Part shown: piece after piece, positions 39,107 through 44,737 of the stretch
How positions within the stretch are numbered: position 1 is the first letter of the stretch
How the letters are laid out: the number at the start of each line of letters is the position of its first letter
Source of the DNA: a virus
Direction: 5' to 3' (one strand)
DNA: 45,517 nt
IMG/VR virus record: IMGVR_UViG_3300013125_000013
Location: 1 to 45,517 of that record
Position numbers and translations under genes: made by a program
Notes under the pieces: model-generated
The model's database searches: none
The model's input: only the letters and a program-made list of their open reading frames with translations
Told to the model about the DNA's origin: nothing

Positions 39107-40054
39107 ATGAGTGACGAGTTCGTAACGCAAATGGTTCCCGTGTCCGAACTGGTCGTGGAGGAGGGGTTCAACGCACGCAAGAACCTGGGGGACATCGAGG
39201 CGTTCGCCAACACCCTCCTGGCTGAGGGCGTGCACGAGCCGATTGGGGTGAAGAAGATCAAGGGCAAGTCCGGGTTCAAGGTCATCTACGGCTTCCGGCG
39301 CGTGGCGGCGGCACAGAAGGCTGAGATCGCCGGGCTTCCGGCCCGCATCTACCCCGCCACCATGACGGTGCTTGAGCAGTACAAGGCCAATATGATCGAG
39401 AACGTGGCTCGTGAGAGCCTGAATCCCATGGACGAGGCCGAGGGTATCCAGCGGCTGATCGCCGGTGGGGTGAGCGAAGAGGACGTGGCACGGTCCCTGG
39501 GCTTCTCCAAGACGCTGATCACTCAGCGTCTTCAACTGCTCAAGATCAGTGACGTTCTTCAGGATCGTCTCCGGGCGGGGCAGATCAGCGTGGCACAGGC
39601 GCGGGCCATCGAGGCGCTGCCCGAGGACCGGCACGAGCGTTTCGCTGACGTGGCTGCCTCCCTCCCCATCGACAAGCTCAAGGGCATGGTTGACAAGGAG
39701 ATGGAGAAGATCCTCAACGCCAATGCGCCCCAGCCTGCGGCGGCTCCTGAGCCTGCGGCTTCCGAGCCCGCTCCGGCCCTCGCCGTTGAGGGTGATCCGG
39801 TTCTCCTCGCCACCAGCGTCACTACCTGCTTGAGCGACATGCTGGCAGCCACGTACAAGAACGACCAGGAGAAGGCCACCAAGGCGGTGATTACGCTGCG
39901 GAGCATCGACTGGACCAAGCTCTCGGTGCAGGATCTCGATGCGCTGTGCGTGCTGCTGGAGGATGTTGCGGAGGATACCGGGTGCATCGGGGCCTCTGAC
40001 AACATCGCCTCCATCGGTGGTGACGAGGCGGCTGAGGAACCTGAGCCTGCGTAG
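39107..40054 (+). CDS. ParB-like DNA-binding protein
   Basis: 315 residues. ParB/Srx N-terminal domain: GFNARKNLGDIEAFANTLLA, YGFRRVAAAQKAEIAGLPAR, then ENVARESLNPMDEAEGIQRL. A helix-turn-helix follows (SEEDVARSLGFSKTLITQRL), and later GQISVAQARAIEAL. An Ala/Pro/Glu linker near 205-230 joins a C-terminal helical domain. ParB proteins bind and slide on DNA (CTPase clamps) for partition or regulation. No ParA is in this window. The codons are strongly GC-biased, suggesting high expression. It could partition a plasmid-like prophage or act as a regulator. Confidence 0.8.
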   Translation: MSDEFVTQMVPVSELVVEEGFNARKNLGDIEAFANTLLAEGVHEPIGVKKIKGKSGFKVIYGFRRVAAAQKAEIAGLPARIYPATMTVLEQYKANMIENVARESLNPMDEAEGIQRLIAGGVSEEDVARSLGFSKTLITQRLQLLKISDVLQDRLRAGQISVAQARAIEALPEDRHERFADVAASLPIDKLKGMVDKEMEKILNANAPQPAAAPEPAASEPAPALAVEGDPVLLATSVTTCLSDMLAATYKNDQEKATKAVITLRSIDWTKLSVQDLDALCVLLEDVAEDTGCIGASDNIASIGGDEAAEEPEPA

Positions 40055-40205: not shown

Positions 40206-40619
40206 GGGGGTGAAGTGGTTTCGACATGGATGCTGAGGTATGGATTGCATGCCGTGGGCACCTTGCGTGAGGGTGCGACAGAAGAAATGCGAACCGTTTC
40301 ATCAACAACGTGATCGACGCGGCCAATCGTTTCGTCCGCAAGACGTTCGATGTTGCCGTTCCGGTTGCGCTGGCGGCCTAAGAGCCGTCCCGTCCTACTC
40401 GTAAGACACCCGGTAGCGGGCTAGGGCGTAACCTACAGGGTTGCTCCTCCATGTACGTATGACTGGCACGGACTTGGAAGGAAAAGAAAACAGCTTGTCA
40501 ACCTCTTCGGTTTTCTCATGGGCCGAAGTTGAGGCTGGAAACAGCTTAACATGAAGAGAAGCATGTGGTGGTTCATAAGTAGGCATTTGTGGACTTGGGT
40601 TCGACTCCCAACACCTCCA
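40206..40619 (+). ncRNA. ssrA: tmRNA (transfer-messenger RNA) with a 30-codon tag
   Basis: The tRNA-like end is complete: GGGGGTG (40206-40212) pairs with CACCTCC (40612-40618), including the G3-U70 wobble that identifies alanine. The T arm is TTGGG-TTCGACT-CCCAA (40595-40611) and the 5' side has the typical GTGGTTTCGACATGGATGC. A ten-pair P2 helix joins 40225-40234 to 40582-40591. Pseudoknot 1 is CATGC/GCGTG with GCACC/GGTGC at 40249-40275. Twelve bases later the resume codon GCG (40289) opens a frame ending VALAA and TAA at 40379-40381. Together with SmpB it frees stalled ribosomes and tags the peptides for proteolysis. CCA is not encoded right after A40619 (GCCA follows). Confidence 0.93.
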
Positions 40620-40645
40620 GCCAAGTGCGAGGGCGTATCGTAATC

Positions 40646-40715
40646 ACCAAGGTAGCTCAAAAGGGGCAGAGCCCGTTGTTAGACGGAGATGTGGGTTCAA
40701 CTCCCATCCTTGGAG
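40646..40715 (+). tRNA. Shortened tRNA-like element, Asn(GUU)-like
   Basis: Starting 26 bases after the tmRNA: acceptor CCAAGG/CCTTGG (6 bp plus an A-A mismatch), TA, D arm GCTC-AAAAGGGGCA-GAGC, and T arm GTGGG-TTCAACT-CCCAT. A72-G73 at the end fits tRNA-Asn. The anticodon arm is short, CCGT-TGTTAG-ACGG (4 bp, 6-base loop), giving about 70 bases in all. T-GTT-A in the loop suggests anticodon GUU. It may be decayed or a functional odd tRNA. Confidence 0.45.
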
Positions 40716-40745: not shown

Positions 40746-41771
40746 ATGGCATACGGCTTTGACACGACCTGGGATCAAGTCAAGGAACTCGTTGCAAGAG
40801 ACGACGAGGGCAAGCACGACCACTTCTTTAGCCCACTCGAATTGCGCATGAAGGGCGGCCGGCTGGCATTGCCCAAGCCTGTAGATGACGGTCAAGGTCG
40901 TAAGTTTCTTTCCGTGGAGCTTGACCAGCGTGCATCGGGCCAGATGTGTGGCCGCATCGAGGTTCCGGTGTCCTATTACCGCAAGATCAGTGAACGTTCA
41001 CCGGATCTGGCAGACGCTGTGCTCAACGAGGGGTTGGCTCATTTAACCGTCTCCAGAGAACAGGCCCGTAACCTCCTTCTTCGCATGAAGGGTGGCATCG
41101 TGCGAGCAGTTCTTTCCCAGGAGTACCGTCGTATTGATAACCGTCAGATCGTTGACTCCATAGAGCGGGCCACGGTGAATCTTGGCAACAGCCGCAGGAT
41201 TCGTTCCTTCAGTGTTACTCCCGAGAATATGTGGCTGAAGCTCACGATGGACAATATCTGGGTTGACGACCCGCTGGAGAAGGGTTCGCCAGTACATCTA
41301 GGGGTGATCGTTGGCAATTCCGAGGTCGGTAGTCGGGCCATCGACGTGTATCCCTTCATCTTTCGCAAGGCGTGTACCAACGATCTGGTGGTACTGCACA
41401 GCAGAGCGGTTAGTCATCGGCACATTGGTAGTGATGACAGGGCTCTTCTCTCCACTGTAGAGAAGGCTATAGCCGTTGCACTGGTTGACGGTCGGCCGTT
41501 CTTGGATAGGTTTGTCAAGGCCGTAGCCACGCCAGTAGCCAAGCCTGAAGAGCATCTTCGCGCTTTTTGCCAGGATCGTGGACTCTCGCAGGCGTTCACG
41601 GAGCAGGCAATTCTTGCGCACCGGCATGAGACTGGCGATACTTTGTTTGCGATCATCAACGCGCTCACCAGGGCGGCGCAGACAGAGAAGCCGGACTCCC
41701 GCGTTGAGATCGAGATGTACGCTGGCTCGCTTCTCAACGAAGGGAGTGCGCCATGGGCCGTGGGGGCGTGA
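40746..41771 (+). CDS. DUF932-family protein
   Basis: 341 residues from the ATG at 40746 with GGAG upstream; codons before it belong to the RNA locus. The family pattern is seen in LLRMKGGIVRAVLSQEYRRI, DNRQIVDSI, then GVIVGNSEVGSRAIDVYPFI and FRKACTNDLVV. DUF932 proteins are widespread in phages and plasmids, often near recombination or anti-defence genes; their biochemical role is unsettled. It is the first gene after the tmRNA and tRNA-like element. It overlaps the next gene by nineteen bases. Confidence 0.75.
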   Translation: MAYGFDTTWDQVKELVARDDEGKHDHFFSPLELRMKGGRLALPKPVDDGQGRKFLSVELDQRASGQMCGRIEVPVSYYRKISERSPDLADAVLNEGLAHLTVSREQARNLLLRMKGGIVRAVLSQEYRRIDNRQIVDSIERATVNLGNSRRIRSFSVTPENMWLKLTMDNIWVDDPLEKGSPVHLGVIVGNSEVGSRAIDVYPFIFRKACTNDLVVLHSRAVSHRHIGSDDRALLSTVEKAIAVALVDGRPFLDRFVKAVATPVAKPEEHLRAFCQDRGLSQAFTEQAILAHRHETGDTLFAIINALTRAAQTEKPDSRVEIEMYAGSLLNEGSAPWAVGA

Positions 41772-42916: not shown

Positions 42917-43396
42917 ATGCCAGATTATGGGGAGGTTGAGGCGGTAAAGGCGGCTACTGAGCGCGCCCATTCCGTTGCCGGGAGATTGCGGTTGCCTATG
43001 CCAAATAACCCAGGAGGGGAGTGTTCGTTTCCTGATGATCTTGGGGCCATGAGCGAGTCTGAACTTGCCAAGCAACTTGGGTATTGGGCTTCGCTTACGG
43101 CCTATGCCTCTACTCAGGTGGCAATCTTTGACGCGGCGGCAACAATTGCGGACACTGACTACGAGCAAGCCTATGACGCCCGCTATAGGGTGTTGGGGGA
43201 TAAGGCGGTAACAGACAAGAAATCCGAAGCTGGAGGCCACCCAGCGGTGATTTCTGCAAAGCAAAAGGCGATCCGATTGAAAGGGGATGCGCGGTTGCTA
43301 GAATCACTCAGGGGTGGCTACGAGCAGAAATACCTGGCTGTCAGCCGGGAGCTTACTCGGCGCCGCTCTCAAGCGGAGGCTGAGGCAGGCAGATGA
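42917..43396 (+). CDS. Helical hypothetical protein after Cas4-like nuclease
   Basis: 159 residues, mainly helical with Ala, Glu, Arg (AVKAATERAHSVAGRLRLPM, SELAKQLGYWASLTAYASTQ, EQKYLAVSRELTRRRSQAEA). Its last codons overlap the spoVS-like gene (ATGA). A recombination accessory role is suggested only by position next to the nuclease. No enzyme motif seen. Confidence 0.55.
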   Translation: MPDYGEVEAVKAATERAHSVAGRLRLPMPNNPGGECSFPDDLGAMSESELAKQLGYWASLTAYASTQVAIFDAAATIADTDYEQAYDARYRVLGDKAVTDKKSEAGGHPAVISAKQKAIRLKGDARLLESLRGGYEQKYLAVSRELTRRRSQAEAEAGR

Positions 43397-43671
43397 CAGA
43401 AGTACAGCGCGAAACCATCAAGGTCGCTGGTCGCTCCAATGTTGGGTCTGTTGCTGGCTCAATCATGCACCTTATCAATGAGGGTAAGCGTGTATCGGCA
43501 ATCGCCATTGGCGCTGGGGCGGTAAACCAGATGGTGAAGGCCGCCATTCTCGCTAGATCCATGGCCACGTCGTCTGGCAGGGATTTGTATTTTACGATGG
43601 CATTCAAGGACGAAATGACGCCAGAGGGGCATAAGGTCGCTATTCAGCTTTTTGTGCACGAGAAGGAGTAG
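43393..43671 (+). CDS. SpoVS-family protein
   Basis: 92 residues. Close in pattern to stage V sporulation protein S: TIKVAGRSNVGSVAGSIMHL, then the hallmark AIAIGAGAVNQMVKAAILAR (SpoVS: IGAGALNQAVKA-type) and a C-terminal beta strand pair ending VAIQLFVHE. SpoVS is a small Alba-like fold protein that affects septation and spore coat assembly in Bacillus and probably binds nucleic acid. Phage copies could modulate host development or RNA/DNA binding. It sits one gene upstream of queD in the same run. Confidence 0.88.
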   Translation: MTEVQRETIKVAGRSNVGSVAGSIMHLINEGKRVSAIAIGAGAVNQMVKAAILARSMATSSGRDLYFTMAFKDEMTPEGHKVAIQLFVHEKE

Positions 43672-43674
43672 GTC

Positions 43675-44145
43675 ATGTTTACCGTGACTAAGCGGGTCGA
43701 GTTTGAGGCCGCACACCGGCTCATGCATCACGAGGGGCTGTGTAAGAATCTGCACGGTCATCATTACGTAGTAGAGGCTTCTTTTGGCAGTCAGATTCTC
43801 GACGAGACAAGTGGCATGGTTGCGGATTTCGGGGTCATCGGTGCTAGGATCAAGGAGTTCATAAATACTCATTGGGACCACGCCTGCATTTTGAATGCTG
43901 AGGATGAGGAGCTTACACAGTTTCTTATCGAACACGGCATGCGCGTATTTATTCTCACTGGAGAGCCTACAGCGGAGAACATGGCGGCATTTCTCGCCAG
44001 ACACCTTGAGTGGGTTTACGGCCCGTCTTACCCGGCTAGGTTGTACGCTGTTAAGGTGTGGGAAACCCCGACTTCGGTGGCAGAGATTTCGGCCAATTTT
44101 AACGGGCCTATTTATAACGAGGCAGAGCGTGTACAGAATAAGTGA
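43675..44145 (+). CDS. queD: QueD, 6-carboxy-tetrahydropterin synthase
   Basis: 156 residues, GAAGGAG before the ATG. Zinc ligands His14 (FEAAHRL), His27 and His29 (CKNLHGHHY), catalytic Cys23, then DFGVIGARIK, PTAENMAAFL and VKVWETPTS with the pterin-binding Glu. QueD converts dihydroneopterin triphosphate into 6-carboxy-5,6,7,8-tetrahydropterin, the second step toward preQ0. It overlaps queE by seventeen bases. GTP cyclohydrolase (FolE) and QueC, needed for a full route, are not in the window and may be host-supplied or beyond the end. Confidence 0.9.
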   Translation: MFTVTKRVEFEAAHRLMHHEGLCKNLHGHHYVVEASFGSQILDETSGMVADFGVIGARIKEFINTHWDHACILNAEDEELTQFLIEHGMRVFILTGEPTAENMAAFLARHLEWVYGPSYPARLYAVKVWETPTSVAEISANFNGPIYNEAERVQNK

Positions 44146-44737
44146 GGTCTTTTATAGCATTCAGGGTGAGGGCCGATTTGCCGGTGAGGCCACAGTATTC
44201 GTGCGCTTTGCTGGCTGCAATCTGAACTGCTCTTGGTGCGACACCCCGCAGAAGAACAAGGTACAGCACGAGGTCAATGACCCGCTCGGTGTAGTTATCC
44301 TGGCTAATAACGTACTGCCCGAAAATGGTGCGCGGCGGGTTACGTTCACTGGAGGCGAGCCGCTGCTTCAGTTAGATGACAGGCTCGTACGCGAGTTCGC
44401 TCAGATGGGCTGGGTCATCTACGCGGAGACGAATGGCACGGTTCCATTCAGGCCCCACCCGATGTCCAAGGTCTACCTGACATGCTCTCCCAAGCCCGGT
44501 CATCCGGTCATTGGGCGGGAGTACGACGCTGTGAAGATAGTTATGGACGAGGGCGTGATCCCTGAGCAGTATGCACATTTGTCTGCGTATCTGTATGTGC
44601 AGCCGTGTGATTACGGACAGGGTTCATTTGTAGCTGCAAAGAACGAGATGTCTAGGCGCCGTGCAGTGGAGTTCGTACTAGGGCACCAGCACTGGAAGCT
44701 TTCCTTACAAACACACAAAATCTTGGGCATTCTGTAG
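44129..44737 (+). CDS. queE: QueE, 7-carboxy-7-deazaguanine synthase (radical SAM)
   Basis: 202 residues from a GTG at 44129; a long N-terminal frame extension overlaps queD and is not credible. It begins MYRISEVFYSIQGEGRFAGE, with the radical SAM cluster Cys30-x3-Cys34-x2-Cys37 (CNLNCSWC), TFTGGEPLL near 71, and the family end motif WKLSLQTHKILGI. It turns the QueD product into 7-carboxy-7-deazaguanine. Queuosine for tRNA or 7-deazaguanine DNA modification is the likely end use. The CTTACAAACACA string in its end motif is therefore coding, not regulatory. Confidence 0.93.
   Translation: MYRISEVFYSIQGEGRFAGEATVFVRFAGCNLNCSWCDTPQKNKVQHEVNDPLGVVILANNVLPENGARRVTFTGGEPLLQLDDRLVREFAQMGWVIYAETNGTVPFRPHPMSKVYLTCSPKPGHPVIGREYDAVKIVMDEGVIPEQYAHLSAYLYVQPCDYGQGSFVAAKNEMSRRRAVEFVLGHQHWKLSLQTHKILGIL

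Follow-up and report, generated by a model that had tools for sequence, protein, structure and literature searches.

The tmRNA gene and its surroundings

The window, by which we mean the whole stretch of DNA analyzed, comprises the 45,517 bases of a virus record and contains a gene for a one-piece tmRNA with phage-type genes on both sides (Table 1). Searching the whole window with the Rfam model RF00023 gave a match at positions 40206–40622 on the plus strand that covers the model from end to end (1–374 of 374) and scores 113.6 bits (cut-off 47 bits; E value 9e-44). The gene proper ends at the discriminator A, which is followed by GCC and not by an encoded CCA, so the host would need to add the CCA. 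All seven pairs of the acceptor stem are formed, among them the alanine identity pair G3–U70, and the T stem pairs at five of five positions. A preliminary description of the locus had recognized all landmarks of a one-piece tmRNA and had placed the gene at 40206–40619; the full-length match and the stem pairing bear out the former, and the coordinates are exact for a gene without CCA. The G+C content is 54% in the tmRNA gene and 55% in the window. ARAGORN, run on the window, did not call the tmRNA gene, and the consensus rules of the tool may alone be the cause. This common annotation software can thus miss phage tmRNA genes of this kind.

Table 1. Features of the tmRNA locus, in positions of the window
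Feature	Position	Strand	Evidence
ParB-like protein, phrog_6218, upstream of the tmRNA	39107–40054		
One-piece tmRNA gene (ssrA), 3' end at discriminator A 40619	40206–40619	+	RF00023 full model; stem pairing
Acceptor stem, 5' strand GGGGGUG, including G3	40206–40212	+	Model alignment; 7/7 pairs
Pseudoknot 1 stem, GCACCUU/AGGGUGC	40258–40276	+	Model alignment; 12 nt before the resume codon
A at −4, equivalent of E. coli A86	40285	+	Sequence; role from PMC2481249
Tag template, 30 codons, ANRFINNVIDAANRFVRKTFDVAVPVALAA	40289–40378	+	Covariance-model alignment; translation
Repeat copy 1, 33 nt in frame, ANRFINNVIDA	40289–40321	+	Repeat comparison
Repeat copy 2, 33 nt, ANRFVRKTFDV	40322–40354	+	Codon-shuffle p 0.0014 to 0.004
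P5 hairpin, UAA 40379–40381 in the loop	40372–40389	+	Model alignment
Acceptor stem, 3' strand CACCUCC 40612–40618, and discriminator A 40619	40612–40619	+	Model alignment; pairing
phrog_1362 protein of unknown function, downstream of the tmRNA	40746–41771		

Elsewhere in the window, we found exonuclease (phrog_2506), ligase, DnaB, RecA, baseplate, and endolysin families. A search for SmpB in the 45.5 kb record, which is possibly incomplete, found none, and the SmpB required would therefore be that of the host. A tRNA-Asn(GUU)-like gene begins 26 nt 3' of the tmRNA (40646–40715, plus strand; Rfam score 34.2 bits, cut-off 29) and likewise escaped ARAGORN. Although G73 is present, the first acceptor pair is an A–A mismatch. 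The anticodon arm, CCG-UUGUUAGA-CGG, apparently lacks one base, so that either its loop has 8 nt or its stem is weakened. Decay of the tRNA, an error in sequencing, or an anticodon loop of unusual form may be the cause.

Resume codon, tag, and stop codon

The covariance model aligns its GCA-AAC to GCG-AAC with high posterior and so identifies GCG at 40289–40291 as the resume codon. The stem of pseudoknot 1 ends 12 nt 5' of this codon, and the base at −4 is an A, equivalent to A86 of the E. coli tmRNA, the position that sets the frame (PMC2481249). Between the resume codon and the stop, the frame has exactly 30 codons and translates as ANRFINNVIDAANRFVRKTFDVAVPVALAA, with VALAA, small hydrophobic residues of the sort that proteases recognize, as its C-terminal end. 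The P5 hairpin, GGCGGC-CUAAGA-GCCGUC, has a perfect 6-bp stem and holds the stop codon UAA in its loop, the normal site of the tmRNA stop codon. The tag length first reported is thereby fixed by the resume codon of the model and the UAA stop, and translation confirms the VALAA end.

The preliminary description had itself pointed to the second Ala-Ala-Asn, at 40319, as another place where the model might put the resume codon. Resumption there would leave a tag of 20 residues, and Ala-Ala-Asn-Arg-Phe is indeed seen again at 40319–40333, inside the repeat described below. We regard this placement as extremely improbable. The model aligns the resume codon at 40289, 12 nt past pseudoknot 1, and not at 40319; the bases 5' of 40319 are part of the open frame and do not belong to the A-rich strand that comes after pseudoknot 1, and the base four positions before it is a C rather than the frame-setting A.

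An internal repeat in the tag

The motif ANRF occurs twice in the tag, as had been noticed earlier, and shuffling the tag produces an exact repeat of four residues in 2.1% of cases. The similarity reaches past ANRF to form an in-frame tandem of 33 nt, the first 33 nt of the tag agreeing with the next 33 nt at 21 positions and the best 33-nt window at the same shift having 22 agreeing positions. The copies show synonymous differences at Ala, Asn, and Asp codons. The repeat was moderately significant in a codon-shuffle test (p 0.0014–0.004), while at the amino acid level alone 5 of 11 residues are identical (shuffle p 0.05). As the test was devised post hoc, we consider an old tandem duplication likely as the origin of the repeat but not proven. 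Nine further long tags from phages contained no comparable repeat.

Comparison with known tmRNAs

In one count, 402 of 18,146 phage genomes, about 2%, carried a tmRNA (PMC9004378); the preliminary description had called phage tmRNAs known but uncommon. In phage Wildcat, the tmRNA is the most highly expressed lytic gene (PMC7474061). With the bacterial one-piece tmRNAs (ssrA, RF00023), the gene in the window has in common the acceptor G–U pair, T arm, P2, pseudoknot 1, A at −4 of the resume codon, stop codon in P5, and ALAA end. It differs from them in its tag of 30 residues; tags in the tmRNA database most often have 10 (PMC11915505).

Phage-encoded one-piece tmRNAs with long tags are also found in Mycobacterium phage Kumao (31 residues, with the frame read in the present analysis), in Gordonia phage BlueNGold (28 residues), and in the Wildcat group, where the tag of phage EniyanLRS has 22 residues (the latter two as annotated). 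The tmRNAs of BlueNGold and of the Wildcat group have tRNA genes as neighbors, whereas that of Kumao does not; the window has its adjacent tRNA-like gene. The similarity to these phage tmRNAs is limited to the conserved core; the letters of the tag differ, and the 33-nt repeat is present in the tag of the window only.

We surveyed viral tmRNAs through matches to the conserved 5' end, which represent a sample and may include contigs that are cellular fragments. Among the matches listed, 41 one-piece genes including that of the window had a matching 3' half, and besides the window two of these, L024 and L025, carried tags of at least 30 residues. Their tags have 31 and 34 residues, respectively, the frame of the latter being assigned in the present analysis and not by ARAGORN. 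These two uncultured viral contigs resemble the window in having a one-piece tmRNA with a long tag but have no detectable protein similarity to it. The tag of a further contig, L052, has 28 residues, or 22 with a later start.

Altogether, five other one-piece tmRNAs of phages and viral contigs have tags of 28, 28, 31, 31, and 34 residues, and the 30-residue tag is thus long but not exceptional, falling inside the known phage range. The preliminary description had called it unusually long, which holds against bacteria, with their commonest length of 10, but not against phages. Phage tmRNAs and tags of this length were already known, and the gene described here is a further example. Phage tags of 28–34 residues suggest that long tags are frequently tolerated, in a survey that is too small for a trend; our reading of the literature found no explanation for long phage tags.

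To place the phage, we searched viral contigs with its ParB-like, phrog_1362, RecA, and DNA polymerase proteins and found no relative, and no relatives of the tag were found in the viral contigs either. Two contigs matched the tag-start pattern, both by chance and without a tmRNA. The closest phage records in the DNA polymerase comparison were ∼36% identical, and similar DNA in phage records amounted to nothing beyond short matches to the conserved core. An exact search of bacterial genomes with the tmRNA 3' end gave no match. The same 3' end retrieved one viral contig (L123, 7336–7759), with 33 of 34 bases in common. This contig is unrelated and shares the conserved core only; its tag, ANDNVEFNYALAA, has 13 residues, and the rest differs. 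Judged by these comparisons, the phage lineage is isolated, and its tmRNA would add an unrelated lineage to the phages that carry a ribosome-rescue RNA of their own.

Proposed function and alternatives

We think it quite likely, from features read in the sequence, that the gene, a complete phage-encoded one-piece tmRNA, is functional. The complete tRNA-like domain, the alanine pair, pseudoknot 1, and an open frame of 30 codons with the expected contexts at its start and stop are all there. In the mechanism that we propose, the host would add CCA to the tmRNA and charge it with alanine, and host SmpB would bring it to ribosomes that have stalled on truncated mRNAs, which are expected to become frequent in infection. 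The ribosome would move to the tag frame and append Ala and the 30-residue tag ending in VALAA, the predicted C-terminal addition on the rescued protein being AANRFINNVIDAANRFVRKTFDVAVPVALAA, before halting at UAA and being recycled.

The ALAA end would then direct the tagged protein to ClpXP-type proteases. Since ALAA is an ordinary tag end, degradation by the proteases that usually act on tagged proteins of the host is the default reading. Tandem duplication of the 33-nt stretch is the probable source of part of the extra length. Rather than specify a new destination, the added residues are likely tolerated or offer the protease an unstructured lead-in. The earlier suggestion that a long tag may recruit different proteases or adaptors is speculation. 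A specific version of it, in which the tag grew by an 11-codon tandem duplication and an adaptor of the phage or the host binds the repeated ANRF(I/V)xxxxD unit and delivers tagged proteins to a protease other than that of the host tag, seems to us very unlikely.

Two other readings concern the molecule as a whole. Phage DS6A has a truncated tmRNA that consists of the tRNA-like domain only and has been proposed to interfere with trans-translation in the host, and inhibition of tmRNA is known for a similar molecule (PMC4131195, PMC11915505); the product of the gene in the window could likewise serve chiefly as a decoy or inhibitor. A decoy would need none of the parts retained here, namely the pseudoknot, the tag frame, the context of the resume codon, and the stop hairpin, and we give this role a very slim chance. 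The gene could also be a decaying, nonfunctional copy of a captured host gene, a possibility in keeping with the unencoded CCA, with the defective look of the neighboring tRNA-like gene, and with searches that gave no relatives for testing the conservation of the tag. We nevertheless consider decay unlikely, as the landmarks are all intact, with full pairing of the acceptor and T stems and an open frame of 30 codons, and CCA is commonly not encoded in viral tmRNAs too, among the matches listed.

Other genes in the window

At 43675–44737 (plus strand), a gene for a QueD-type 6-pyruvoyl tetrahydropterin synthase precedes a QueE-like radical SAM gene, in which the motif CNLNCSWCDT occurs. By analogy with DNA-modifying phages, the pair suggests synthesis of 7-deazaguanine. 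A protein of the SpoVS family (PF04232, 63 bits), a bacterial family associated with sporulation, is encoded at 43393–43671 (plus strand) amid phage genes.
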